This document shows, piece by piece, positions 5,101-21,212 of a stretch of DNA of 22,010 nucleotides; positions within the stretch are counted from its first letter, which is position 1; every line of letters starts with the position of its first letter. Below the pieces are notes generated by a model, which ran no database searches, was not told the DNA's origin, and saw nothing but the letters and a program-made list of their open reading frames with translations. This DNA is from Brachyspira catarrhinii (GTDB lineage Bacteria; Spirochaetota; Brachyspiria; Brachyspirales; Brachyspiraceae), in the NCBI RefSeq assembly GCF_005518285.1, contig NZ_SJDU01000001.1:1-22010 (forward strand), read 5' to 3'. The position numbers and the translations under genes were made by a program.

Positions 5101-6300
5101 TTATTCTTGAGAGACTATTTTTAAATAATGCAAAAATTCTTTATCTTCGCATATAGTTTTACCTTCATCGTCCGACAATTTTGCGACTGGTTTTCCATTA
5201 ACGCTTTGAAGTTTCATTACTATATTAAGAGGTTTCGCTATAGGTTTAAAATCGTTCATAATAAAAGTGCCTATCCCGAAAGTCACATTAGTTTGATTTT
5301 TAAATTCTTTATATATTTTATATGCCTTATCAAAATCCAAACTGTCGCTGAATAGTAAAGTTTTCGTCATCGGATTTATTCTTAATTTTTTATAATGATT
5401 TATGACTTTATAACCCCATTCTATAGGATTTCCAGAATCATGCCTTATTCCATCGTAGAGTTTTGCAAAATATAAATCGAAATCTTTTAAGAATTTATCC
5501 GTTCCCAAAGTGTCCGACAAAGCTATTCCCAAATCTCCCCTATATTCATTAACCCAAGATTGAAGCATGAATTTCTGGCTTTCGGCAAGTCGCACTTTAT
5601 CCAAAGCCTGCCCGACTTGATAATATTCATGGGCGTTCGTTCCAACGGCAAGTATATCGTATTTTTTTGCAAAATAAACATTGCTTGTGCCGACAAAACA
5701 TGACGGCGGAATTTTTTTCTTCAAAATATTTATAACTTTATCCTGCCATTTGAAAGAAAATCTTCTTCTCGTGCCGAACTCGGAAAATTTAAATCCGTTA
5801 TTTTCTTTATGCATTGGAATTAGTTTATTCTCAATTTTTTCAAGCAAATTTTTTTCGCCCTGTTTATAAACCGAATCTTTTTTATTTTTTTTTATTACCG
5901 AATAATGATAATATATTTCGCTTATCATAGACAAAACGGGAATTTCCCATAATATCGTTTGATACCAAGGTCCTTCGATTTCAACGGTAAGTTTATTATT
6001 GTCGAATAACGCTTTTATATGCTCTTCCAAAGGCTTATATAACTTTAGGAATTCTATATAATCTCTTTTTATGAATCGTAAAGAAGCCAAATAATCGAGT
6101 TCTTCTTTATTAAAATGAATATTGCAAAAATTTTTTATCTGTTTCAAAAATTCCTCATGCATTTCGTAAGTCCAATTCAAAATATTTCTGCTTTTGAAAA
6201 CATAGCGAACCCATACATTTGAAAATTGCCTTAAAGCGCATTGTTGCATAGTAAATTTATATAAATCTGTATCGAGTAAACTAATTATTATAGGTTTCAT
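5101..6300 (-). CDS. pncB: Nicotinate phosphoribosyltransferase
   Basis: The enzyme joins nicotinate and PRPP to form nicotinate mononucleotide, using ATP, the first step of the NAD salvage route from nicotinate. It is cytoplasmic. The 399-residue length is normal for the family. Landmarks are 'LLDTDLYKFTMQQ' at the N-terminus (8-20), 'EFGTRRRFS' (174-182), 'GTNAHE' (220-225), where His224 should be the autophosphorylated histidine, 'LYDGIRHDSGNP' (281-292) and 'FGIGTF' (341-346). A ribosome site (AAGGA, 8 nt before ATG) supports the start. It lies 12 nt after the AtpZ-like gene and 13 nt before a lipoprotein gene, so it probably belongs to the amidase-led operon, although nothing in those neighbours relates to NAD. 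Confidence 0.95.
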   Translation of the reverse strand: MKPIIISLLDTDLYKFTMQQCALRQFSNVWVRYVFKSRNILNWTYEMHEEFLKQIKNFCNIHFNKEELDYLASLRFIKRDYIEFLKLYKPLEEHIKALFDNNKLTVEIEGPWYQTILWEIPVLSMISEIYYHYSVIKKNKKDSVYKQGEKNLLEKIENKLIPMHKENNGFKFSEFGTRRRFSFKWQDKVINILKKKIPPSCFVGTSNVYFAKKYDILAVGTNAHEYYQVGQALDKVRLAESQKFMLQSWVNEYRGDLGIALSDTLGTDKFLKDFDLYFAKLYDGIRHDSGNPIEWGYKVINHYKKLRINPMTKTLLFSDSLDFDKAYKIYKEFKNQTNVTFGIGTFIMNDFKPIAKPLNIVMKLQSVNGKPVAKLSDDEGKTICEDKEFLHYLKIVSQE

Positions 6301-8608: not shown

Positions 8609-9301
8609 ATGAATGATTGCGATTTTAAGTCCAGAGTAGATTTTGTTTCAGACGAAATATTAGAAATGATTATAGACGGCGGATTTCAAGTTGGCGATAA
8701 ATTGCCTAACGAACTTGAGATTGCCAAAGATTTAAATGTAGGAAGAAGCACCGTAAGAGAGGCTATAAAAAAACTCGAAAGTCAAAATATTTTAGTTATA
8801 AAGCAAGGAGCTGGAACTTTTATATCGGATAAAAAAGGACTTATGGATGACCCTATGGGGTTTAGATTTTTTAGAGATAAAAATAAGCTTGTGAGAGATA
8901 TTATAGAAGTGAGAATGATGATAGAGCCTACTATAGCGGAAATGGCGGCGTTAAATTCGGATAGAGAGGATATAGAACAAATAAAATATTTTTGCAAAAA
9001 AGTAGAAGAAGATATACTAAAAAATAGAAGCCATACTAAAAACGATATATTATTTCATACCGCTATCGCTAAAAGCAGCAAAAATAAAGTAATTTCTAAT
9101 TTAATACCAATAATTAATAAATCGATAGAAATGTCTATAGATATTACCGATAACAAACTTGTTTCTACAACTATAGAATGCCATAAAGAAATACTTGAAG
9201 CTATATCGGAACATAATCCAATAGCCGCTAAAGACGCTATGACATTGCATATAATTTATAATCGCAAATATATAAGCGAAAAATTATCAAAAATAGAGTA
9301 G
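8609..9301 (+). CDS. FadR/GntR-family transcriptional regulator (FCD domain)
   Basis: This is a one-component regulator of the FadR subfamily of GntR proteins. The N-terminal winged helix-turn-helix (about 11-74) shows 'QVGDKLPNELEIAKDLNVGR', 'STVREAIKKLES' and 'GAGTFI'. The FCD effector domain follows (about 95-225), with Arg102 and likely metal ligands Asp146, His150, His192 and His214. FCD regulators usually bind carboxylic or sugar acids and control adjacent catabolic genes (UxuR, ExuR, DgoR, LldR types). It precedes a run of ten sugar-acid genes, separated by a 235-bp gap with a strong promoter, which fits a local repressor whose inducer would be one of the pathway acids. A short AAGG ribosome site lies 7 nt before ATG. 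The family is certain; target and effector are inferred from position. Confidence 0.9.
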   Translation: MNDCDFKSRVDFVSDEILEMIIDGGFQVGDKLPNELEIAKDLNVGRSTVREAIKKLESQNILVIKQGAGTFISDKKGLMDDPMGFRFFRDKNKLVRDIIEVRMMIEPTIAEMAALNSDREDIEQIKYFCKKVEEDILKNRSHTKNDILFHTAIAKSSKNKVISNLIPIINKSIEMSIDITDNKLVSTTIECHKEILEAISEHNPIAAKDAMTLHIIYNRKYISEKLSKIE

Positions 9302-9444: not shown

Positions 9445-9473
9445 TTGACATTTATATTTTTATGTATTATACT
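9445..9473 (+). promoter_or_regulatory. Strong sigma-70-type promoter of the sugar-acid operon
   Basis: A perfect TTGACA (9445-9450) is followed after 17 nt by TATACT (9468-9473), close to the ideal arrangement. Transcription would start near 9480, about 57 nt before the aldolase ATG at 9537. It is the only convincing promoter seen ahead of the ten co-directional genes that end at 21212. Confidence 0.7.
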
Positions 9474-9501: not shown

Positions 9502-9511
9502 ATCGTCCGAT
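9502..9511 (+). promoter_or_regulatory. Possible GntR-type operator
   Basis: The inverted repeat ATCG-TC-CGAT lies about 22-31 nt downstream of the predicted transcription start and before the ribosome site. Its centre, GTCCGA, resembles the GTCNGAC core bound by FadR-type proteins. A protein bound here would block transcription, as expected for a local repressor. The arms are only 4 bp long and no second copy was found near the regulator gene, so this is a weak candidate. Confidence 0.3.
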
Positions 9512-9536
9512 GTTTAATTTATTGATAGAGGTTTTT

Positions 9537-10166
9537 ATGTTTGATAAATATGTGTCTACTCCTATAATACCTGTCGCAGTAGTCGAGACAGAAGAGGAAA
9601 TAAGAAAAATAGCGGACTTTTCTTCAGAGTATTTGCCATCCATAGAGCTTACTATGAGAACGGAATACGCTTATAAGGCTCTTGAAATATTATCTAAAGA
9701 TTATTCTAATTTAGCGGTTGCAGCGGCTACGGTTATATCTCCAGAACAAGCCGATAGAATATTAGACTTGGGAATAAATCTTATAATAAGCCCAGGTTTT
9801 CAGCCTATAATGTTGGAACATGCAAAAAATAAAGGATATAATTATATACCAGGAGTAGCTACTCCGTCAGAATTGGAACAATGTCTATATAGCGGTTATA
9901 AATATTTAAAATTTTTTCATGCTGGAGTTTTTGGCGGTATAGAATGGCTTAAAGGAGTCGGAACGGTTTATTCTCATACTGGAGTTAAATTTATGCCTTT
10001 GGGCGGAGTTAGTATTGATAATGTTTTAGAATATTTGAAACTTCCAAATGTATTTGCATGCGGCGGTTCATGGTTATGTCCAAGAAATTTGCTTTCGGAT
10101 AAAAACTGGAAAGAGATAAAGAAAAGATTTGAAACGGCATCTAATTTAATTAAGGAGTTAAAATAA
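9537..10166 (+). CDS. 2-dehydro-3-deoxy-6-phospho(galacto/glucon)ate aldolase (KDPG/KHG aldolase family)
   Basis: This class I aldolase splits 2-keto-3-deoxy-6-phosphogluconate or its galacto epimer into pyruvate and glyceraldehyde 3-phosphate, the last step of Entner-Doudoroff-type routes. At 209 residues it is the normal size. Landmarks are 'IELTMRT' with Glu37 and Arg41, 'SPGF' and 'PGVATPSE' around the pyruvate site, Schiff-base Lys125 in 'YKYLKFF', and the phosphate-binding 'PLGGVSIDN' (155-163) and 'ACGGSWL'. The start is ATG 9537, because AGAGG stands 5 nt before it; an in-frame ATG at 9510 adds nine residues but has no ribosome site. The kinase gene starts 1 nt after the stop. The presence of a DgoD-like dehydratase downstream suggests a DgoA-like role, but gluco versus galacto preference cannot be read from sequence. 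Confidence 0.9.
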   Translation: MFDKYVSTPIIPVAVVETEEEIRKIADFSSEYLPSIELTMRTEYAYKALEILSKDYSNLAVAAATVISPEQADRILDLGINLIISPGFQPIMLEHAKNKGYNYIPGVATPSELEQCLYSGYKYLKFFHAGVFGGIEWLKGVGTVYSHTGVKFMPLGGVSIDNVLEYLKLPNVFACGGSWLCPRNLLSDKNWKEIKKRFETASNLIKELK

Positions 10167-10167
10167 T

Positions 10168-11190
10168 ATGTCTTATATTGTAGGTTTAGGCGAGCTTATG
10201 TTAAGATTATCTTCGTTAGATAGCGAAAGGCTTTTGCAAAGCGCTATGCTAAACGCCACTTTTGGAGGAGTGGAAGCCAATGTATGCGTATCGGCTGCAA
10301 GGTTTGGATTAAATGCGAGATATGTAACGGCTTTTCCAGATAACGCTTTGGGCAGAAAGGCTGAAGAGCTTTTATTAGGGCAAAAAGTGGACACTTCATG
10401 CATAGTATGGAAAGGAAAAAGATTAGGGCTTTATTTTTTAGATATGGGATATGACCATCGTCCTTCTTCCGTTACTTACGATAGAGAATATTCTGCAATT
10501 AGCGAAATAAGTCATGCAGATTTTGATTGGGATAAAATATTTTACGATGCCGAATATTTTCATATAACGGGAGTGACTCCTGGAATAAGCGAAAGCGCAA
10601 GAGAATTGACTATATACGCCGTGAAAGAAGCTAAAAAAAGAAATGTAAAAGTTTCTTGCGATATTAATTATAGAAAAAAACTTTGGAAATACGGAAAGAA
10701 TATATGGGATGTTATGCCAGAAATAGTGGAACAATCAGACATACTTTTTGCAAACGAATACGATGCCGTTAAAATACTTGGTATAAAAAGCGATTTGGAT
10801 GTGGATGGCGTTATTAATGATGAAGAATATACCGATTTAATGGAAAGAACCATAAAAAAATATAATTTAAGTTCGGTAATAACTACTAAAAGAGAAGTGA
10901 AAAGTTCAAGCTATAATATTTTTAGCTCTAAAGCTATAATGAACGGAAAATTATATAAATCAAAAAAATATGACATTAACAATATAGTAGATAGAGTAGG
11001 TTCTGGAGACGCTTTTGTAGGAGGAATATTAAGCGGTTTATATTTATTTGATAATCCGCAGGATATATTGGAATTTGCTACCGCTTCTTCATGCATTAAA
11101 CATACTATTTATGGAGATTGGAATATAACTTCAAAAGAAGAAGTTATTAGCCTTATGAATAGCAAGGGTTCGGGAGATGTCAGCAGATAA
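10168..11190 (+). CDS. kdgK: 2-dehydro-3-deoxygluconate/galactonate kinase (PfkB family)
   Basis: This ribokinase-family enzyme should phosphorylate 2-keto-3-deoxygluconate (or -galactonate) at C6 using ATP, feeding the aldolase encoded just upstream. The N-terminal 'GELMLRL' and the sugar-binding 'FGGVEANVCVSAARFG' (32-47) are typical of KDG kinases. The C-terminal PfkB signature 'DRVGSGDAFVGGILSGL' (275-291) holds the catalytic base Asp281 and the anion hole GSGD. At 340 residues it is within family range. The ribosome site AAGGAG lies inside the end of the aldolase gene and only 1 nt separates the two genes, so translation is probably coupled. It does not resemble the unrelated DgoK fold, so if the substrate is KDGal the family member is a functional replacement. 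Substrate specificity is inferred. Confidence 0.88.
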   Translation: MSYIVGLGELMLRLSSLDSERLLQSAMLNATFGGVEANVCVSAARFGLNARYVTAFPDNALGRKAEELLLGQKVDTSCIVWKGKRLGLYFLDMGYDHRPSSVTYDREYSAISEISHADFDWDKIFYDAEYFHITGVTPGISESARELTIYAVKEAKKRNVKVSCDINYRKKLWKYGKNIWDVMPEIVEQSDILFANEYDAVKILGIKSDLDVDGVINDEEYTDLMERTIKKYNLSSVITTKREVKSSSYNIFSSKAIMNGKLYKSKKYDINNIVDRVGSGDAFVGGILSGLYLFDNPQDILEFATASSCIKHTIYGDWNITSKEEVISLMNSKGSGDVSR

Positions 11191-11219: not shown

Positions 11220-12377
11220 ATGAAACAAATAATAGATAGATATGAAATTTTTAAAGTTAATCCAAGATGGGTATTTTTAAAAGTTATAACTAAAGACGGC
11301 ATAATAGGTTTTGGCGAGCCTGTTATAGAAGGAAGGGCGGATTCTGTTATAGCTTGCGTAAAAGAGCTTATGGATAATTATTTAATTGGAAAAAACGCAT
11401 TGGATATAAACGACCATTGGAATGTGTTATACAGAGGAGGTTTCTATAGAGGCGGTCCAATATTAATGTCTGCTTTATCTGGAATTGACCAAGCTTTATG
11501 GGATATTAAAGGTGAATTTTTGAATGTTCCCGTTTACGAACTTTTAGGCGGAAAATGTAGAGACAGCATAAGAGCTTATTCATGGGTTGGAGGAGACAGA
11601 CCTTCCGATACAGGAAATATGGCGTTGGATAGAAAAAATAAAGGTTTTTCAGCGGTAAAAATGAATGCAACGGAAGAATTACAGTATATAGATTCTTATG
11701 ACAAAATTGATAAAGTTCTTGAGAGAGTCGCTTCAATTAGAGAAAAATGCGGAAAAAATTTCGGAATAGGAATAGATTTTCACGGCAGAGTTCATAAACC
11801 TATGGCAAAAGTGTTGGCAAAAAAATTAGAAGAATTTAACCCCATGTTTATCGAAGAGCCTGTTTTATGCGAAAATTATGAGTCGTTTAAAGAAATAGCG
11901 AATATAACTTCCATTCCAATAGCTACGGGAGAAAGATTATTTTCAAGATGGGATTTTAAGAAGATATTTCATCAGGGAGCGGTGTCTATTATACAACCTG
12001 ACGCTTCCCATTCTGGCGGAATAACGGAAACTGTAAAAATAGCTTCTATGGCGGAAACTTACGATATAGCTTTGGCTTTGCATTGTCCTTTGGGACCTGT
12101 CGCTTTGGCTTCATGTTTACAAATAGACGCCGTTTCATATAATGCCGTTATACAGGAGCAAAGCATAGGCATACATTATAATAAAGGATGCGATGTTTTG
12201 GATTATATAAAAAACAAAGAAATTTTTAATTTTAAAGACGGTTATTTGGATATTCCTAATAAATCTGGTTTAGGAGTAGAAATAGACGAAGAAAAATTGA
12301 AAGAAGAAAGCAAAAAGGTTTTGGATTGGAAAAATCCAATATGGAGACATAAAGATAATTCTTTTGCCGAATGGTAA
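11220..12377 (+). CDS. dgoD: D-galactonate dehydratase (enolase superfamily)
   Basis: The enzyme removes water from D-galactonate to give 2-keto-3-deoxygalactonate. The protein parallels E. coli DgoD as I recall it along its whole length, including 'GFGEPVIEGRA' (30-40), 'YRGGFYRGGPILMSALSGID' (71-90), 'AYSWVGGDRPSD', 'SYNAVIQEQSIGIHYNKG' and the C-terminal 'WRHKDNSFAEW'. The Mg2+ ligands are in place: Asp186 (GIDFHGR), Glu212 (FIEEPV) and Glu238 (TGERLF), with catalytic His188 and His288 (LHCPLGP). The length of 385 matches the family. A GGCGAG element before the ATG at 11220 can serve as ribosome site. It sits between the kinase and a transporter gene in the operon. Close residue agreement makes this the best-defined substrate assignment in the locus, though some DgoD-like enzymes act on other aldonates. 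Confidence 0.9.
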   Translation: MKQIIDRYEIFKVNPRWVFLKVITKDGIIGFGEPVIEGRADSVIACVKELMDNYLIGKNALDINDHWNVLYRGGFYRGGPILMSALSGIDQALWDIKGEFLNVPVYELLGGKCRDSIRAYSWVGGDRPSDTGNMALDRKNKGFSAVKMNATEELQYIDSYDKIDKVLERVASIREKCGKNFGIGIDFHGRVHKPMAKVLAKKLEEFNPMFIEEPVLCENYESFKEIANITSIPIATGERLFSRWDFKKIFHQGAVSIIQPDASHSGGITETVKIASMAETYDIALALHCPLGPVALASCLQIDAVSYNAVIQEQSIGIHYNKGCDVLDYIKNKEIFNFKDGYLDIPNKSGLGVEIDEEKLKEESKKVLDWKNPIWRHKDNSFAEW

Positions 12378-12420: not shown

Positions 12421-13870
12421 ATGTCAGGCGTTAATATGATTATAGGATTGTTAGTATATGTGGTTATACTAATGTTTTTCGGATGGTATATACCAAGAAA
12501 ACAATCGGGAGGAGCGGATTTTTTACTTGGAGGAAGAAATGTTCCTTTCGTATTAGTTTTAGGCACTGCCCTTGCGACATTAGTTGGAACTGGTTCTACT
12601 ATGGGAGCTGTAGGAAGCGCTTATAACAATGGATGGGGGGGGGGTGCTTGTCGGAATAGGCAGCGCTTTAGGATTTTTTATATTGACTTTCGTTTTTGTA
12701 AGCGCAAGAGAATATAAATTTGTAACCGAAACGGAAGAGCTTGCTTATTATTACAATAATAATAAAGGGTTAAAAATTATTGTATCTATAATGCTTACTT
12801 TAGGTTCAATTGGATGGTTGGGAGCGCATCTTCTTGGCGGAAGTTCTTATTTGGCTCATATAACGGGCTTAAATATAAATCTTTGCATGATAATTATGGC
12901 TTTTTGTTTCGCCGTATATATTTTATTAGGCGGATATTTAGCCGTAGTTGTAACGGATACAATTCAGGCTTTTATACTTTTCATTGGATTTTTTGCTATG
13001 GCTTTTTATTCTTACTACAAAGTTGGAGGAATGGAAGCGATTGAAAAAGTAATGGACACAGGAGCGTTAAGTTTTTTAGGCATAGGAAAATTAGGACTTT
13101 TGCCTGCCATTTCAACAGTTTTAGCTATTGGGACTAGTCCATTATCCGTTCCGTCATATAGGCAAAGAATTTACTCGGCTAAAGATACTTCCACCGCCAA
13201 AAGGGCTTTTTTAGTAACTTCGATTGCCATTATTATATTTTCCGTCTTTCCAGCAATGGTTGGTATGTCCGCTCATGTTTTAAATCCAGATATAGAAAAT
13301 GTTAATTTTGTATTTCCTTTTATGGCAACTTCTGCGTTTCATCCTTATATAGGGCTTGCGATATTAATATGCGGTATGTCGGCGTCAATTTCTTCTGGCG
13401 ATTCGGACGCTATGACGGGAACTACAATTTTGGTAAACGATGTTTATCAATTAATTATGGGAAAAGCCATTCCTGCAAATAAAGTAGTTTTATTTTCAAA
13501 AATAACGGCTTGCTCGGTAATATTCGTTTCGCTTTTATTTATATGGTTTGCAAACGATATTTTGGGCTATATTCAAACTATGATTTCAATGCTTTTGGCG
13601 GGAGTAACCGTAGCTGGAGTTTTTGGAAGATTTTGGAAAAGAGCCACTTGGCAAGGAGCTATAGCGGGAATAATTATGGCAACCGTTGTATCTTTTATAG
13701 TATCTTCAAATAAGCAATGGAATTCTTTCTTTGGAGGTCCAATTATTCCAGCTTTAATAATATCTTCTTTAAGTTTGGTTATAGTTTCGTTAATTACTCC
13801 TAAACCAAATAGAAGTAGAGAGGAAGTATTAAAAGAAATAGTTAGCAATAGAGAAGGTATGGGATTATAA
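12421..13870 (+). pseudogene. Sodium:solute symporter (SSS family), split by a G10 tract; ON/OFF switch candidate
   Basis: The gene starts at ATG 12421 (AGGAG, 7 nt upstream). Its first part reads 'MSGVNMIIGLLVYVVILMFF' and 'LVGTGSTMGAVGSAYNNGW', then runs into ten Gs. As given, the frame then yields a short foreign tail and stops at 12717 (98 residues). The rest of the transporter lies in another frame to 13870 and continues exactly where the first part breaks off (…GVLVGIGSALGFFILTFVF…), with about ten further membrane helices. With nine Gs the two join into 482 residues, the normal size for Na+-coupled solute symporters. No other lesion is seen, which argues against old decay. The context suggests uptake of a sugar acid. 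Alternatives are a homopolymer sequencing error, transcriptional slippage that restores the frame, or a fresh mutation. An ATG at 12629 exists but lacks a ribosome site. Confidence 0.82.
12635..12644 (+). repeat. Poly-G tract (10 G) inside the symporter gene
   Basis: Ten consecutive Gs follow the Trp72 codon's T. It is by far the longest G or C run in this AT-rich window. Length decides the frame: 9 (or 12) gives the full symporter, 10 (or 11) truncates it. Such tracts inside coding regions are typical contingency loci that change length by slipped-strand mispairing. Confidence 0.85.
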
Positions 13871-13912: not shown

Positions 13913-14905
13913 ATGAAAGTTATAGCTTACGCGGTTAGAGATGATGAAATTCCTTTGTTCGATAAATGGGGAAAACATTACGATATAGAAACGACTATTG
14001 TGCAAGAAAATTTGAGAGAAGACAATATAAAAATGGCGTCTAATTTCGATAGCATAATTTTTCTTGCAGAAGATACAATGAATAAAAATGTATTGGATAA
14101 AATAAAATCTATGAATATTGATTATATTGTTAGTCGTTCGGTAGGAGTGGATAATGTCGATTTTGCTCATGCAAATAAATTAGGCATAAAAGTGGCAAAT
14201 ATTCCAGGATATTCTCCGAATTCCGTAAGCGAATACGCCTTGCTTTCTACTCTCGCGTTATTAAGAAAATATAATTTATATATAAAGAGAGTTCAAATGC
14301 AAGATTTTAGAATAAAAGGGCTTATAGCTAAAGAAATTAGAAATCAAGTAGTCGGCATAGTTGGAGCTGGGCGCATAGGTTCTCTTACTGTTAAACATTT
14401 TTCAGGATTTTTTCCTAAAAAAATACTTATTTTTGATAATTTTCAAAATGACGAATTAAAGAAGTATGCAGAATATGTTTCAATGGATGAAATATATAAA
14501 GAATGCGATATTATAGTTTATCATGTTCCGTTGATTGAAGAGACAAAATATTTGATACGCAAAGAAAATATAGATAAAATGAAAAATGGAGTTTTCATAA
14601 TAAATGTTAGCAGAGGTAAAGTTATGAATACCGCCGATGTTATAGACGCTTTAAAATCTGGCAAAATAGGAGGAGCCGCCATAGATGTATATGAAAACGA
14701 GCTTCCATATTTTAGATTTGATAAAAGGGAAACTTTTATAGAAGACGATATGTTAAGAGAGCTTTTGAGTATTCCTAACGCTATAGTCACTCCGCATGCG
14801 GCATTTTATACGGACGAAGCGGCGTCAAATATGGTGTCTGTGTCTCTTAAAAATGCAAGAGAGTTTTACGACACGGGCAATTGCTCAAATATTATTAAAG
14901 TATAA
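13913..14905 (+). CDS. D-isomer-specific 2-hydroxyacid dehydrogenase (D-lactate dehydrogenase-like)
   Basis: This NAD-dependent enzyme interconverts a 2-keto acid and the D-2-hydroxy acid. The Rossmann motif 'GIVGAGRIG' (148-156) with Asp175 at the end of the second strand indicates NAD rather than NADP. The catalytic triad of the D-LDH type is complete: Arg234 (NVSRG), Glu261 (DVYENE) and His295 (TPHAAFYT). The substrate-domain 'SRSVGVDNVD' (74-83) and the length of 330 also agree with D-lactate dehydrogenases. It has an AAGGAG ribosome site and lies between the symporter and the TRAP genes. It could turn pyruvate from the aldolase into D-lactate and so regenerate NAD+ used elsewhere, or reduce or oxidise a pathway-specific 2-keto sugar acid. 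The second option is speculation prompted by its place in the operon. Confidence 0.85.
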   Translation: MKVIAYAVRDDEIPLFDKWGKHYDIETTIVQENLREDNIKMASNFDSIIFLAEDTMNKNVLDKIKSMNIDYIVSRSVGVDNVDFAHANKLGIKVANIPGYSPNSVSEYALLSTLALLRKYNLYIKRVQMQDFRIKGLIAKEIRNQVVGIVGAGRIGSLTVKHFSGFFPKKILIFDNFQNDELKKYAEYVSMDEIYKECDIIVYHVPLIEETKYLIRKENIDKMKNGVFIINVSRGKVMNTADVIDALKSGKIGGAAIDVYENELPYFRFDKRETFIEDDMLRELLSIPNAIVTPHAAFYTDEAASNMVSVSLKNAREFYDTGNCSNIIKV

Positions 14906-14993: not shown

Positions 14994-15977
14994 ATGAAAC
15001 ACATGAAACAAAAGAGAAGCTACATCCTATTATTTGTATTGGTTTTATTAATAGGATGTAAAGAGAATTCCGACCAAGTTATTCGTTTTAAGATGGGGCT
15101 TGTCGACCCAGAAAACAGTAATTACGGTATGGGAGCAAAGAGGATATCTCAAGAGGTATCAAACGCCACTTCTGGAAAAATTATTATAGATGTTTTTGGA
15201 AGCGGACAGTTAGGCAATGAAAGAGATATGTATGAAGGCGCTCAACTTGGAACTGTAGATATAGCTACGATTGCAAATCCAGTTTTAACTTCATTCATTC
15301 CCGAAATGGCTATTTTAGACCAGCCGTTCTTATTTGAAACGGAAGAGCAAGCTCACAATGTTATTGACGGAGAGCTTGGAGAATTAATAAAGCAAAAGGC
15401 TTTGGAGCAAGGAATACATATCGTGGGATGGATGGAATCTGGTTTTAGAAATTGCTTTTCTATTCGTCCAATTAAAAATTTATCAGATTTTAAAAATTTG
15501 AAAATAAGGACAATGGAAAACGCTACGCAAATAGCGGTATTTGAATCCTTCGGAGCTATTCCAACTCCGATGCCCGCCACAGAACAATATACGGCTTTAC
15601 AGCAGCGAACAATAGATGCTGGCGAGAACGCAATTGCAAATGTTTTAGCGAATAAATATTACGAGGTGGTTAAAAATATAACTTTAACTCGCCATCAATT
15701 TGTTTTTATAGCTATTGGATTATCGGATAAAGCATGGAATAGAATTCCAGATGAATTGAAGCCCGTTTTCGTGGAATCCGTAAAAGAAGGAGCGAATTAC
15801 CAAAGAGCTTTATTATCCGAAGCAAATGCAGAGGCTGAAGTAGAGCTTAAGGAAATTGGCGTTACTTTTTATAATATAGATAGAAACGAATTAAAAAATT
15901 CGGCAAGTCAGAAAATGGTATCCTTTACTAATAGAATACCAAAAGATTGGATAGATGCCTCTAAAATATTAAATTAG
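14994..15977 (+). CDS. dctP: TRAP transporter solute-binding protein (DctP family)
   Basis: This is the extracytoplasmic receptor of a tripartite ATP-independent periplasmic transporter, which captures an organic acid and hands it to the Q/M membrane subunits for Na+-driven uptake. The signal sequence ends in the lipobox LLIGC, so the mature protein is probably a lipoprotein from Cys22. The DctP fold is seen in 'GQLGNERDMYEGAQLGTVDI' (71-90), 'LDQPFLF' (108-114) and 'LKIRTMEN' (169-176). Arg172 is the conserved arginine that salt-bridges the carboxylate of the ligand; Arg152 and Glu211 are other likely pocket residues. A strong ribosome site (AAAGGAG, 6 nt before ATG) supports the first of two nearby Mets. 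It is followed by a stem-loop and then dctQ and dctM. The neighbours suggest a hexonate or uronate ligand. Confidence 0.93.
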   Translation: MKHMKQKRSYILLFVLVLLIGCKENSDQVIRFKMGLVDPENSNYGMGAKRISQEVSNATSGKIIIDVFGSGQLGNERDMYEGAQLGTVDIATIANPVLTSFIPEMAILDQPFLFETEEQAHNVIDGELGELIKQKALEQGIHIVGWMESGFRNCFSIRPIKNLSDFKNLKIRTMENATQIAVFESFGAIPTPMPATEQYTALQQRTIDAGENAIANVLANKYYEVVKNITLTRHQFVFIAIGLSDKAWNRIPDELKPVFVESVKEGANYQRALLSEANAEAEVELKEIGVTFYNIDRNELKNSASQKMVSFTNRIPKDWIDASKILN

Positions 15978-16042: not shown

Positions 16043-16528
16043 ATGAAGAAAATTTATAATTTTTTAAATAGAATAGAATATTTTATTTTGATAATAACAT
16101 TTACTATAATGATATTATCAACTTTTGCCCAAGTTATTAATCGAAATTTCATCGGTTTAAGTATTTCATGGTTTGAAGAATTAGCAAGATATTCGATGGT
16201 GTATATGGCTTTGCTTGCAACGGAAATTGGATTGAGAGACGGCAGCCAAATTTCTATTACTCTATTAACGGATATAGCAAAAGGTTTTTTAAAAAAATTA
16301 TTACTAATTATTGTAAAAGTTATTATTATAGTTTTTTCAGCGGTTATTTTTATAACTTCTTTCCAAATTCAAAGAGTTCAAATTATGGCAAATCAAACAT
16401 CGGCAGGACTTCGTATACCTATGGTGATACCGTATTTTGCATTAACTCTTAATTTTGGAATAATAGTAATAACGCAGAGTTTACAGCTAATTATGATAAT
16501 ATTTTCTAAAAATAGAGAAATAAAATAA
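16043..16528 (+). CDS. dctQ: TRAP transporter small permease (DctQ family)
   Basis: This 161-residue membrane protein has four predicted helices (about 12-34, 45-66, 88-110 and 128-152), the DctQ layout. The family signature is visible as 'ISWFEELARYSMVYMALLAT' (41-60), with the conserved W-EE-R motif, and 'EIGLRDGSQISI'. The small subunit joins the large DctM subunit in the membrane and is needed for docking of the DctP receptor. The ribosome site AGGA lies 8 nt before ATG. It follows the dctP stem-loop and ends 17 nt before dctM. Like most DctQ proteins it is poorly conserved outside the signature, but the order P-Q-M leaves little doubt. Confidence 0.9.
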   Translation: MKKIYNFLNRIEYFILIITFTIMILSTFAQVINRNFIGLSISWFEELARYSMVYMALLATEIGLRDGSQISITLLTDIAKGFLKKLLLIIVKVIIIVFSAVIFITSFQIQRVQIMANQTSAGLRIPMVIPYFALTLNFGIIVITQSLQLIMIIFSKNREIK

Positions 16529-16545: not shown

Positions 16546-17817
16546 ATGTCTGGTTTAATTTTATTTGGTTCTTTAGCCGTATTATTGGCTATTGGAGTTC
16601 CTATAGCTATTTCATTAGGAGGCGCGACTTTAATAACGGTAATATTTCTACAAGTTCCGCTTTCTGTTCTTGGGCAAAGAATTTTTACAGGTTTAGATTC
16701 TATTTCCATTATGGCTATTCCGTTTTTTGTATTAGCTGGAAACCTTATGACTAAAGGAGGTATTTCAAGGAGATTAGTTAATTTGTCAAATAGTATTATT
16801 GGCAATTTTAGAGGTGGTATGGGATACGCGATGGTTTTAGCTTGCGCTTTTTTTGCGGCTTTATCGGGTTCAGCGCCAGCTACCGTTATAGCTATAGGTT
16901 CTATGTTATACCCAGAAATGGTTAAACTTGGATACCCTAAAGCTAGAGCTGCTGGTTTATTGGTAGTATCTGGTGGATTAGGACCTATAATTCCTCCAAG
17001 CATAATTATGGTTGTATATTGCACAATAACAAATAGCTCGGTTGGAGATATATTTAAAGCTGGCATAGTGGCGGGTATTTTAATTACAATAATAGTGATG
17101 GCTATAGGATTCTATATATCGCATAAGGAGAAATGGCCTATAAACGAAAATAAAATTTCATTGAAAGATTTTTTGATTTCTTTACTTAAAGCTATTCCCG
17201 CTATAATGCTGCCTGTTATAATATTAGGAGGCATTTATTCTGGATTATTAACTCCGACAGAATCTGCAAGCGTAGCTGTAGTTTATTCTTTTATTGTCGG
17301 AGTATTTGTATATAGAGAGATAAAAATAAACGATTTATTAGAAATATTGTTAAATTCAGCTAAAAGTAGCGCCATGTTATTATTTATAATAGCCACTTCT
17401 ACGGCATTTTCATGGATTTTTACTTTCTCTGGTATATCGGGACATTTAGTATCTACGATAATTTCATTAAATCTATCGCCAATTTTATTTTGTTTAATAA
17501 TAGCTATAATATTATTAATATTCGGGACATTTTTAGAAGGGATTGCCACTTGCGTATTATTAGTGCCTGTTTTATGGCCAATAGCTCAGAGTCTGGGCAT
17601 AAATTCCATACATTTTGGCATGATAGTCGCTCTATCCAATGTAATTGGAACAATGACGCCTCCAGTAGCCGTGAATATATTTGCCGCGGTAAGCGTAACA
17701 AATTTAAACATAGGAGAAATAGCCAAAGGAGAAATTCCGTTTTTTATAGGGTATAATATAATATTTTTCTTATTTGTTATTTTTCCTTGGTTTAGCACTT
17801 TTTTATTAGGTAATTAA
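16546..17817 (+). CDS. dctM: TRAP transporter large permease (DctM family)
   Basis: This is the main transport subunit, a 423-residue protein with about 12 hydrophobic segments, catalysing Na+-coupled inward movement of the acid delivered by DctP. Characteristic stretches are 'SIMAIPFFVLAGNLMTKGGI' (53-72), 'FFAALSGSAPATVIAIGSML' (103-122), 'GGLGPIIPPSIIMVVYC' and, in the second half, 'GIYSGLLTPTESASVAVVYS' and 'GTMTPPVAVNIFAA'. The repeated P-rich hairpins mark the two pseudo-symmetric substrate regions. The length is normal. The ribosome site (AAGGAG, 7 nt before ATG) is strong. The set P-Q-M is complete and apparently intact, in contrast to the split symporter upstream, so this operon would keep one working importer whichever way the symporter reads. 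Confidence 0.94.
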   Translation: MSGLILFGSLAVLLAIGVPIAISLGGATLITVIFLQVPLSVLGQRIFTGLDSISIMAIPFFVLAGNLMTKGGISRRLVNLSNSIIGNFRGGMGYAMVLACAFFAALSGSAPATVIAIGSMLYPEMVKLGYPKARAAGLLVVSGGLGPIIPPSIIMVVYCTITNSSVGDIFKAGIVAGILITIIVMAIGFYISHKEKWPINENKISLKDFLISLLKAIPAIMLPVIILGGIYSGLLTPTESASVAVVYSFIVGVFVYREIKINDLLEILLNSAKSSAMLLFIIATSTAFSWIFTFSGISGHLVSTIISLNLSPILFCLIIAIILLIFGTFLEGIATCVLLVPVLWPIAQSLGINSIHFGMIVALSNVIGTMTPPVAVNIFAAVSVTNLNIGEIAKGEIPFFIGYNIIFFLFVIFPWFSTFLLGN

Positions 17818-17852: not shown

Positions 17853-18614
17853 ATGGAAGATTTGTTTAATATAGAAGGTAAAAAAGCTATAGTAACGGGA
17901 GCTTCTAAAGGATTAGGGTATGCAATGTCAGAAATATTAATGCAATGCGGATGCGAAGTTGTATTAATTGGTTCTTCTGATAAGATTTATGCATCCTACG
18001 AAAATTTTAAGAAACTTGGATATAAATGTTACGCAATAAAAGCGGACTTGATTAAAAGAGAAGAAAATTATAGAGCTTTTGAGGAAAGTATGAAATGCCT
18101 TAATAACGATATAGATATACTTGTGACAGCCGCTGGAATACAAAGAAGGCATAGCGCCGAAGATTTTCCAATTTCAGAATGGGATGATGTTATTAATATT
18201 AATCTTAATTCTGTTTTTATTTTTTGTCAGCTTGCAGGAAAAATAATGCTAAAAAAAGGAAAAGGTAAAATAATAAATGTGGCTTCTATGTTATCTTTTT
18301 TTGGAGGGCAAACCGTTCCAGCCTATAGCGCATCAAAGGGTGGCGTAGCGCAACTTACAAAAGCTTTAAGCAATGACTGGTTAGGAAGAGGAGTTAATGT
18401 TAATGCTATAGCGCCTGGTTATATGAATACAGATATGAATGAAAATCTTATTAAAAATCCAGAAAGATTAAAACAAATATCCGATAGAATACCCGCGGGT
18501 AGATGGGGAACTCCAGATGATATGAAAGGCATCACAATATTTTTATCATCTGATGCATCGGATTACATAAGCGGCGCTATAATCCCCGTTGATGGCGGAT
18601 ATTTGGTTAAATAA
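17853..18614 (+). CDS. kduD: KduD-like short-chain dehydrogenase (2-deoxy-D-gluconate 3-dehydrogenase / DKII reductase type)
   Basis: This is a classical NAD(P)-dependent SDR of 253 residues, the same length as KduD. It has the cofactor motif TGASKGLG (15-22), 'TAAG' (92-95), catalytic Ser145, Tyr158 and Lys162, and the C-terminal 'SASDYISGAIIPVDGGYLVK'-type end. The segments 'VNVNAIAPGYMNTDMNENL' and 'DRIPAGRWGTPDDMKG' closely parallel E. coli KduD, which reduces 2,5-diketo-3-deoxygluconate to 2-keto-3-deoxygluconate in uronate breakdown. That product is the substrate of the kinase upstream. The next gene is an isomerase that could supply the diketone. A related option is gluconate 5-dehydrogenase. 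The ribosome site AAGGAG lies about 9 nt before ATG. SDR family sure, KduD-type role likely, exact substrate open. Confidence 0.82.
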   Translation: MEDLFNIEGKKAIVTGASKGLGYAMSEILMQCGCEVVLIGSSDKIYASYENFKKLGYKCYAIKADLIKREENYRAFEESMKCLNNDIDILVTAAGIQRRHSAEDFPISEWDDVININLNSVFIFCQLAGKIMLKKGKGKIINVASMLSFFGGQTVPAYSASKGGVAQLTKALSNDWLGRGVNVNAIAPGYMNTDMNENLIKNPERLKQISDRIPAGRWGTPDDMKGITIFLSSDASDYISGAIIPVDGGYLVK

Positions 18615-18638: not shown

Positions 18639-19433
18639 ATGAATAAAGATAGTAAAATTATTATGGAAAAATGGAGTATAATGTCTCCAAATGGCTACGG
18701 ATTACATAAATGCATTGCGCCAGAAACCCATGACTGTAACGTAGTAAATATATTAAGATTAAATATAAAAAAAGGAGATACTTTTAAACTTAAATCTAAT
18801 GAATTAGAAATGAATGCCGTCTTAATAAAAGGGCATGCCAAAGTTTCTAATAGAGATTTAAATGAGGAGATGGATAAATTAGATGCATTTTACATTCCTG
18901 GCAATTCGGATATATTAATAGAAAGTATGGAAGATACTATTTTTTATATCGGAGCTGCAATTTGCGAAGGATATGGAAAAACTTTTTTTAGAAAGTTTAA
19001 TAAATATTTGGAATTAGGAAATATACATCAAATACATGGAAAAGGCGCTGGGCAAAGAGAAGTATTTTTTACTCTAAATCCAGAAGTTCCATCATCCAGA
19101 TTACTATGCGGACTTACTTGGGGACAAGATGGTGGATGGACTAGTTGGCCTCCGCATCAGCATGAAAATGACCTTGAAGAAGTATATTGCTATTTCGATA
19201 TGGATTATCCAAAATTTGGAATGCATTTAAGTTATTTAAATTCGGGAGAATTTAACGAAATAGTATCGCATGTAGTTCAAAGCGGTTCTATGGTTTTGGC
19301 TCCGAAAGGCTATCATCCTACTGTGGCATCGCCTGGAACTATAAATACTTATTTTTGGGTTTTAGCCGCTCATTCGCATAAGAGCAGAAGATATGATTTA
19401 GCCATAGCTGACCCTAAAATTATTATAGATTAA
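18639..19433 (+). CDS. IolB/KduI-family sugar-acid isomerase (5-deoxy-glucuronate isomerase-like)
   Basis: This is a cupin-type metal isomerase of the KduI/IolB superfamily, 264 residues. The metal motif lies in the second cupin: 'PPHQHENDLEEVY' (171-183) provides His173, His175 and Glu180 or Glu181, and His226 in 'APKGYHPTVA' is the likely fourth ligand. The pattern 'W(T/S)SWPPHQH' fits IolB (5-deoxy-glucuronate isomerase) better than E. coli KduI, whose metal segment reads differently. Both families catalyse aldose-ketose isomerisation of a uronic acid. Other inositol genes (iolC, iolD, iolE, iolG, iolJ) are absent here, and a KduD-like gene lies 24 nt upstream, so the enzyme may do KduI's job (4-deoxy-5-ketouronate to 2,5-diketo-3-deoxygluconate). 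Family call firm, reaction inferred. Confidence 0.78.
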   Translation: MNKDSKIIMEKWSIMSPNGYGLHKCIAPETHDCNVVNILRLNIKKGDTFKLKSNELEMNAVLIKGHAKVSNRDLNEEMDKLDAFYIPGNSDILIESMEDTIFYIGAAICEGYGKTFFRKFNKYLELGNIHQIHGKGAGQREVFFTLNPEVPSSRLLCGLTWGQDGGWTSWPPHQHENDLEEVYCYFDMDYPKFGMHLSYLNSGEFNEIVSHVVQSGSMVLAPKGYHPTVASPGTINTYFWVLAAHSHKSRRYDLAIADPKIIID

Positions 19434-19469: not shown

Positions 19470-21212
19470 ATGAAAAGAAATATTAAAGATATGCCAAGTC
19501 AAAAGGTAAGAGAATTATCTCCAGAAATAGACCCTTTAAAAATAGGCATGGGTTGGACAGTTCAAGATTTAGATAAAATTCATGTTTTTATAGAAACCAC
19601 ATACGGGCATAGTCATCCTGGCAGCGCTCATTTGCTGCCTATAGCGCAAGAAGCGTATAAAGAAATTGAAAATAATAACGCCAAAGGGAATTTATTTTTC
19701 ACTACGGATATTTGCGATGGACAGGCTCAAGGGCATGACGGTATGAATTATTCGCTTCCTTCAAGAGAATTTATTTGCAATATGATAGAATGTCAGTTTA
19801 ACGCTACCGCTTTTGATAGCGCAATATTTATATGTTCATGCGATAAAGGAGTTCCCGCCCATTTGAAAGCTATAGCAAGATTAAACGCTCCTTCTATAGT
19901 TATAACGGGAGGAGTTATGCAAGCGGGACCGAATTTACTAACGCTGGAACAAGTTGGAACATATTCCGCAAAATATCAAAGAAACGAAATAACCAAAGAA
20001 GAGTTTTTAAAAGCTAAATATAACGCTTGTCCGAGTTGCGGAGCATGTTCTTTTATGGGAACGGCTGGAACGATGCAGGTTATGGTAGAAGCTTTAGGGT
20101 TAAGTTTGCCTGGCAGCGCTATGATGGCTGTGGAAATGGAAGATTTAAAGAATGTAGCAAGGATAGTCGCTAAAGAATCCATAAGACTCGCATATGACAA
20201 TATAAAACCTTCCGATATACTTACTCATAAAGCTTTTGAAAACGCTATTATGATTCATTCTGCAATAGGCGGTTCTACTAACGCTTTGCTTCACATTCCA
20301 GCTATAGCAAACGAACTTGATTTAAATATAGATATAGATTTATTTAGTAAGATTCATAAGGAAATTAATTTTATAACAAATATAAGACCGAGCGGATTTT
20401 ATCCAGGTTCTTACTTCCATAAAGCTGGCGGAGTTCCCGCGGTTATGAGAGAGCTTAAAAAATTCCTACATCTCGATGTTATGACGGTTACTGGCAAAAC
20501 TCTTGGAGAAAATTTAGAAGATTTGGAAAAAAGCGATTATTTTAAAAAATCTGACGAAGAATTAAGAAAAATTAATATTAAAAGAGAAGATATAATAAAA
20601 CCTTATAAAAATCCTATAAAACAAGGAGGAGCGATAGCCATACTTAAAGGGAATATAGCTCCAGAAGGCGCGGTTATAAAACATTCGGCTTTACCTAAAG
20701 AAATGAGAAATGTAGTATTAAAAGCCGTAACTTTTGACAGAGAAGAAGACGCTATGAAAGCGGTAATAAGCAAAGTAATAAAACCAGGCGATGCCGTTAT
20801 AATAAGATACGAAGGTCCAAAAGGTTCATGTATGCCCGAAATGTTCTATACAATGGAGGCAATATCTTCGGACGAGTCTTTAAGTTCAACGGTGGCTCTA
20901 ATTACGGACGGACGCTTTTCTGGAGCTAATCGAGGTCCAGCAATAGGACATGTATCGCCAGAAGCAGCGGCTGGAGGACCGATAGCGTTAATTGAAAATG
21001 AAGATTTAATCCACATAAATGTAGACGAATATTCTATTAATATTATTGGAGTAAAAAACGAAAGGAAATCTAAAGAAGAAATAGATAGTATTTTAAACGA
21101 AAGAAGAAATAAATTAAAACCTTTCATACCTAAATTTAAAAAAGGAGCTTTAGCGGTTTATTCCTCTTTAGCTAATGGGGCTATGAAAGGAGCTTATATG
21201 GAAATTAGATAA
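19470..21212 (+). CDS. IlvD/Edd-family Fe-S dehydratase, probably acting on a sugar acid
   Basis: The family removes water from dihydroxy acids, aldonates or 6-phosphogluconate with an iron-sulfur cluster as Lewis acid. Length is 580. Landmarks are 'CDGQAQGHDGMNYSLPSRE' (82-100), 'ICSCDKGVP' (121-129), 'CPSCGACSFMGTAGTMQ' (187-203), 'AIGGSTNALLH', 'YEGPKGSCMPEM' and 'DGRFSGANRGPAIGHVSPEA' near the C-terminus, with the catalytic serine in RFSG. Likely cluster ligands are Cys82, Cys124 and Cys193; the position that is Cys in arabonate/xylonate dehydratases reads Ser52 (HPGSAHL). Cys82 in a CDG motif is as in 6-phosphogluconate dehydratase (Edd). Branched-chain biosynthesis (IlvD proper) is less likely because no ilv gene is near and the operon is catabolic. 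Substrate undetermined. Confidence 0.85.
   Translation: MKRNIKDMPSQKVRELSPEIDPLKIGMGWTVQDLDKIHVFIETTYGHSHPGSAHLLPIAQEAYKEIENNNAKGNLFFTTDICDGQAQGHDGMNYSLPSREFICNMIECQFNATAFDSAIFICSCDKGVPAHLKAIARLNAPSIVITGGVMQAGPNLLTLEQVGTYSAKYQRNEITKEEFLKAKYNACPSCGACSFMGTAGTMQVMVEALGLSLPGSAMMAVEMEDLKNVARIVAKESIRLAYDNIKPSDILTHKAFENAIMIHSAIGGSTNALLHIPAIANELDLNIDIDLFSKIHKEINFITNIRPSGFYPGSYFHKAGGVPAVMRELKKFLHLDVMTVTGKTLGENLEDLEKSDYFKKSDEELRKINIKREDIIKPYKNPIKQGGAIAILKGNIAPEGAVIKHSALPKEMRNVVLKAVTFDREEDAMKAVISKVIKPGDAVIIRYEGPKGSCMPEMFYTMEAISSDESLSSTVALITDGRFSGANRGPAIGHVSPEAAAGGPIALIENEDLIHINVDEYSINIIGVKNERKSKEEIDSILNERRNKLKPFIPKFKKGALAVYSSLANGAMKGAYMEIR

Follow-up and report, generated by a model that had tools for sequence, protein, structure and literature searches.

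The symporter gene and its operon

The window, that is the whole stretch of 22,010 nt that was analysed, contains what looks like an operon for a galactonate-type sugar-acid pathway, and within it a symporter gene whose two parts lie in different reading frames because of a run of ten Gs. The features are as follows.

8609..9301, plus strand: GntR/FCD regulator (Pfam GntR and FCD), by its position a candidate regulator of the operon
9445..9473, plus strand: promoter-like site TTGACA-17-TATACT upstream of the aldolase gene, from a consensus scan only
9510..10166, plus strand: KHG/KDPG-type aldolase (PF01081; TIGR01182, 175 bits, cut-off 156)
10168..11190, plus strand: PfkB-family kinase, probably a 2-keto-3-deoxy sugar-acid kinase (PF00294; NCBIfam KDG/KDGal models below cut-off)
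11220..12377, plus strand: galactonate dehydratase (NF010624, 646 bits, cut-off 311)
12421..12717, plus strand: 5' part of the symporter gene in frame 1, encoding 98 aa with the final residues out of frame; matches residues 1-74 of the full-length relative P0001
12635..12644, plus strand: G10 tract, spanning codons W72-G73-G74-V75 of the full-length relative
12629..13870, plus strand: 3' part of the symporter gene in frame 2, encoding 413 aa when read from an internal ATG; member of SSF (PF00474)
13913..14905, plus strand: D-2-hydroxyacid dehydrogenase (PF02826, PF00389)
14994..15977, plus strand: TRAP solute-binding protein DctP (PF03480, NF037995)
16043..16528, plus strand: open reading frame, probable TRAP small permease DctQ by its position between DctP and DctM
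16546..17817, plus strand: TRAP large permease DctM, without G-tract (PF06808, TIGR00786)
17853..18614, plus strand: SDR dehydrogenase, KduD-like (TIGR01832, 287 bits, below the cut-off of 339)
18639..19433, plus strand: KduI/IolB-family isomerase (PF04962)
19470..21212, plus strand: IlvD/Edd-family dehydratase (NCBIfam IlvD/Edd models, all below cut-off)

Within the galactonate-type gene set the dehydratase and the aldolase score above their model cut-offs and the kinase is assigned at the level of the Pfam family only, and the operon probably acts on a hexonate, for example D-galactonate. The scan that gave the promoter-like site found 75 sites against 63 expected in shuffled sequence. As the original prediction had it, an intact TRAP importer is present in the same operon, with both DctP and DctM matching their families. 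The gene that follows the symporter begins only 42 bases downstream, and polarity in an OFF state is therefore possible. The galactonate dehydratase is found in none of the 25 other Brachyspira genomes at 1e-40, which marks the operon as accessory. The genus itself is indicated by the protein encoded at 5101-6300 of the window, which has its best match, at 85% identity, among uncultured Brachyspira records.

The 5' part of the symporter gene starts at an ATG at 12421 preceded by AGGAG, and its 98-residue frame is symporter-like up to ...NNGWGG, after which it is out of frame until the stop codon at 12715-12717. Frame 2 is open from 12614 to 13867 (418 codons), giving 413 residues from the ATG at 12629, and its product matches Pfam SSF with 100.3 bits over profile positions 44-405 of 406. 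The 98-aa 5' part alone has no Pfam family match and aligns with the N-termini of relatives. A natural protein of 482 aa, P0001, spans both parts, differing at two positions in residues 1-72 and at 11 in the 409-residue C-terminal part, and against it no second lesion is seen across 480 codons; the frame beyond the tract is thus the remainder of one conserved and otherwise intact protein. The proposal that ten Gs separate two frames of one symporter that has no other defect is in this way borne out, the run being exact.

By sequence the 3' part belongs to the SSF family, and by fold so does P0001, whose model (mean pLDDT 87.6) is closest to the Na+/sialic acid symporter 5nv9 with TM scores of 0.79/0.80. 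The protein could not be placed in any SSF subfamily with a known substrate, since PutP, PanF and other models are far below cut-off, and TIGR00813 reaches 122 bits on the 3' part against a cut-off of 184. From its context the symporter is a probable sugar-acid importer, and its cargo is most likely the sugar acid degraded by the operon.

Long G-runs in this and other Brachyspira genomes

The G10 at 12635-12644 is flanked by T, and the window has no second G or C run of at least five. In a set consisting of the 22 ORFs taken as genes together with the N-terminal part of the symporter, with the tract itself left out, GGG makes up 34 of 433 glycine codons. When synonymous codons were shuffled in 41 Gly-Gly contexts over 20,000 trials, a run of at least nine was obtained in 0.58% and one of at least ten in none. 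Pattern counts on both strands of the genome (2.69 Mb in 987 contigs, 88% complete) gave 12 runs of six Gs, one of seven, none of eight, nine of nine, three of ten, two of eleven, and one each of 13 and 14. The distribution is thus bimodal, with 16 runs of at least nine against about 0.18 expected from base composition, and such a separation of short from long runs would be expected for repeat-driven contingency loci. A random run in AT-rich DNA is ruled out by the codon shuffles and the base-composition expectation, in line with the earlier claim that such a run is unlikely by chance. That the tracts themselves are poly-G sequencing artefacts was also rejected, because they are located inside contigs and at glycine codons of conserved proteins, and homologues encode those glycines otherwise. 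Loss of mismatch repair as the cause of the many tracts is unsupported; the genome encodes MutS1, which would dampen slippage.

Genes for methyltransferases and glycosyltransferases are typical targets of contingency loci, and these two classes account for nine of the 16 long runs. Five are found in SAM-dependent methyltransferase genes (three on L065, one each on L068 and L070) and four in genes for glycosyltransferases or a glycosyltransferase-like protein (L065, L067, L069 and L071). One is in a SPASM/radical-SAM gene (L062), three are in importer genes, and three lack an assigned family, namely one on L063, for which a rough count gives ten hydrophobic segments, one on L066, and one in a short frame on the minus strand of L065. 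The 13-kb locus L065 (G000:C130:1-13043) carries five G9-G11 runs, three of them in methyltransferase genes next to one another and a further one in the glycosyltransferase-like gene, and is a candidate for a dense phase-variable modification cluster. At L062, L067 and L068 runs of G9-G10 lie near the 3' ends of the genes, directly before TAA-rich sequence, where a change in tract length would alter the C-terminus.

The three tract-bearing importers belong to unrelated families, and two of them add to the original prediction, which concerned the symporter. Besides the SSF symporter of the window they are a sorbitol PTS EIIBC (L061), matching the SrlE model with 449 bits at a cut-off of 400, and a TRAP DctM (L064). 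The EIIBC gene (L061:364-1367, G000:C12) is split by a G10 at G000:C12:474-483, with the N-terminal part and the remainder in different frames, and the DctM gene has a G9 at G000:C105:1445-1453 and is in frame. Tracts are not general to importers, as only one of the five DctM-like permeases found in the genome has one.

Runs of at least nine Gs occur in 20 of 26 Brachyspira genomes, this one included, and G021 has 15. The genes at 37 of the 53 tracts taken from 19 other genomes were scanned against Pfam, the remaining 16 being mostly short open frames. Above cut-off there were 15 methyltransferases, three radical-SAM proteins, one glycosyltransferase, one Vsp surface protein, two epimerases, one TPP enzyme, one BNR-repeat protein and two members of the CoA-transferase family; two genes had sub-threshold matches only and nine had no match. 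No importer family was seen among these 37. The resulting difference, 3 of 16 tracts here against 0 of 53 in other Brachyspira (Fisher p 0.011, or 0.036 when L076 is counted), is a soft one, as the comparison is post hoc and covers 37 scanned genes out of the 53 tracts. L076 (911-2040, minus strand) is located in G021, and has a G11 starting in the fifth codon after the start codon of a frame that runs to a stop; a different frame encodes a hydrophobic protein of nine segments. This protein has no Pfam or NCBIfam match and its relatives in plasmid records are hypothetical where annotated; it may be YkvI-like and possibly a permease, and the locus could be a second switch of a membrane protein. 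G005, G020 and G013 (L178, L181 and L182) share a G9 of the same length between the same 12-base flanks, with the CoA_trans family found in both members that were scanned, indicating that a G9 need not vary in Brachyspira.

Homologues of the tract-bearing importers

The original prediction had suggested comparing the tract with that in other Brachyspira. For the symporter itself such a comparison found no partner: no close orthologue is present in 24 other genomes, where the best match has about 30% identity, and in the 25th (G041) there is no match at 1e-60; long G-runs as such are found in 19 of the 25. The absence of both the orthologue and the dehydratase from these 25 genomes rules out an old genus-wide switch in the symporter. 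No near-relative symporter DNA was found in the named genomes, and a single homologue combines close similarity with DNA readable at the tract site. It is encoded in G115, from another spirochaete family, is 70% identical, and reads TGG GCA GGG GTT with no run, so the symporter tract is not ancient. The prediction had also held out poly-G in homologues as a check; this was not found in the G115 homologue, which points to a recent tract, and the reading as a candidate switch is still supported. Compared with the same homologue over 409 codons, the symporter gene differs at 100 first, 66 second and 233 third codon positions, a pattern that indicates constraint on the symporter at the protein level.

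The other two importers show the same at their tract sites. The DctM orthologue in G007, with 90% amino acid and 81% nucleotide identity, has AGA GGC GGA GTT versus AGG GGG GGG GTT here, and the EIIBC homologue in G018 (52% aa) has GGA GGA GGA GTT and no run. The same glycines are thus encoded by mixed codons in homologues, indicating that the runs arose recently at Gly-rich sites of conserved proteins. Among protein entries, P0001 is 97% identical to the symporter and in frame, with 28 member sequences on four contigs, the longest of 21,886 bases; at the protein level, then, a near relative of the symporter is in frame. The nearest DctM entry, P0241 (98%; 55 members on 42 contigs), is intact. 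The nearest EIIBC entry, P0121 (98%), begins at the Gly run, which would fit an OFF phase or a fixed loss equally well.

A possible switch in carbon-source uptake

The reading that we prefer, with a probability of roughly 0.65, is that the G10 is a contingency locus and that carbon-source importers of this genome are subject to on/off phase variation by poly-G; the mechanism is known and the target class is unusual. It agrees with what had been predicted for the symporter from the window, since nine of the other G9-G14 runs of the genome lie in methyltransferase or glycosyltransferase genes, the protein is otherwise intact and a 97% identical relative is in frame. Slipped-strand replication would alter the number of Gs, presumably reversibly, and the tract length modulo three should then set the frame, giving either the 482-aa symporter (ON) or a stop about 23 codons further on (OFF). 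The assembled length would belong to the OFF class, with a 98-aa remnant as product. In this remnant no more than the first two predicted helices would be complete: the tract encodes residues 72-75, so that the break would interrupt the long helix predicted for residues 58-98, and the 98-aa product should not be a transporter. ON cells would produce an SSF-fold sodium symporter that most likely takes up the sugar acid of the operon, and in OFF cells the tract-free TRAP importer downstream may take over the flux, or may also be reduced through polarity. With the same device in EIIBC and in a second TRAP permease, the cells of one clone would form a mosaic that differs in nutrient uptake, and switching may thereby benefit the cells. 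A wider version, which we put forward tentatively and at somewhat less than even odds, is a 'diet phasome': poly-G slippage would randomly turn SSF, PTS and TRAP importers on and off, the switches being part of accessory catabolic operons, and a clonal population in the gut would in this way hedge among several sugars and sugar acids.

The tract could also be real and mutable with the assembled length a sequencing, PCR or consensus error, the gene being normally in frame and the run not a selected switch. The genome is a 987-contig draft of 88% completeness, long homopolymers are reported to trouble Brachyspira sequencing (PMC8845278), and near relatives are in frame for two of the three importers (P0001 and P0241). 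Such an error would account for the frame, but neither for the surplus of long runs at glycine codons across the genome nor for their concentration in modification genes, and we regard it as unlikely. One-way recent inactivation of a symporter made redundant by the TRAP importer of the same operon would account for the out-of-frame assembly, and the EIIBC gene is likewise split with its nearest entry truncated N-terminally at the Gly run; drift, however, does not predict a lesion placed within a rare G10, a second lesion is absent over 480 codons and the intact relative P0001 exists, so that inactivation seems quite improbable. Long homopolymers are known slippage sites, and transcriptional slippage or ribosomal frameshifting might let some full-length protein be made from a tract that lowers expression with no switching. 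This leaves unexplained the many tracts that stand directly before stop codons or in genes of other classes, and there is very little to be expected of it.

Finally, the switch may be real and its benefit an escape from an agent that uses the importer, such as a bacteriocin, phage DNA entry or a toxic substrate analogue, rather than nutritional bet-hedging. The PTS permease Man-PTS is a bacteriocin receptor in other bacteria (PMC5566476), but this precedent does not concern the three importers considered here, and we give escape only an outside chance.

The usual explanation of slipped-strand phase variation is surface evasion. Carbon importers of the cytoplasmic membrane are non-obvious immune targets, and three of them under G-tracts in one genome would thus point to a selective force of another kind in gut bacteria, metabolic bet-hedging, of which tract length in metagenomes would provide a countable readout.

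Known poly-G systems offer partial parallels. In Campylobacter and Helicobacter the poly-G/C loci are likewise tracts within reading frames, concentrated in sugar transferases and methyltransferases (PMC6321876, PMC2823697), and some tracts near gene ends give C-terminal variants in Helicobacter canadensis (PMC2823697), like the arrangement at L062, L067 and L068. The Campylobacter set has a metabolic member, ansA (L-asparaginase), and a heme/hemopexin transporter-protein precursor, HxuB_1 (PMC6321876), whereas here 3 of the 16 are carbon-source importers. In Neisseria meningitidis 'Transport and binding' is over-represented among repeat-associated genes and metabolic functions are mentioned; the transporter gene sstT differs in that its repeat is upstream of the gene (PMC5084427). 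It has been cautioned for the Neisseria phasome that sporadic tracts in metabolic genes may result from evolution independent of selection (PMC5953494), and this applies also to the importer tracts found here.

Evasion is part of the usual rationale for phase-variable haemoglobin receptors. The meningococcal HmbR and HpuAB resemble the present case in having a poly-G within the reading frame of a nutrient-uptake gene, there with reversible on/off switching (PMC3786947), but they are haemoglobin-binding iron receptors, while those found here are probable carbon-source importers of the cytoplasmic membrane, judging by family. Treponema pallidum, also a spirochaete, has poly-G tracts at tpr, TP0126 and TP0127 whose length is thought to control expression; the cases named are mostly outer-membrane proteins and promoters, unlike the importers here, and a G insertion between strains in the sodium symporter TP0555 is not described as a tract in the passages concerned (PMC3373638, PMC10118025).

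Among the matches listed from the open-access literature, outside which most subscription papers fall, none described poly-G phase variation for Brachyspira. Vsp proteins are mentioned in general terms as phase-variable (PMC5415613), and in PMC4267127 the term appears in the reference list only. In G021 the gene at L080:1663-2825, which matches PF05540 (Serpulina variable surface protein) with 81 bits, is split by a G9 that might be an on/off switch for a Vsp protein.
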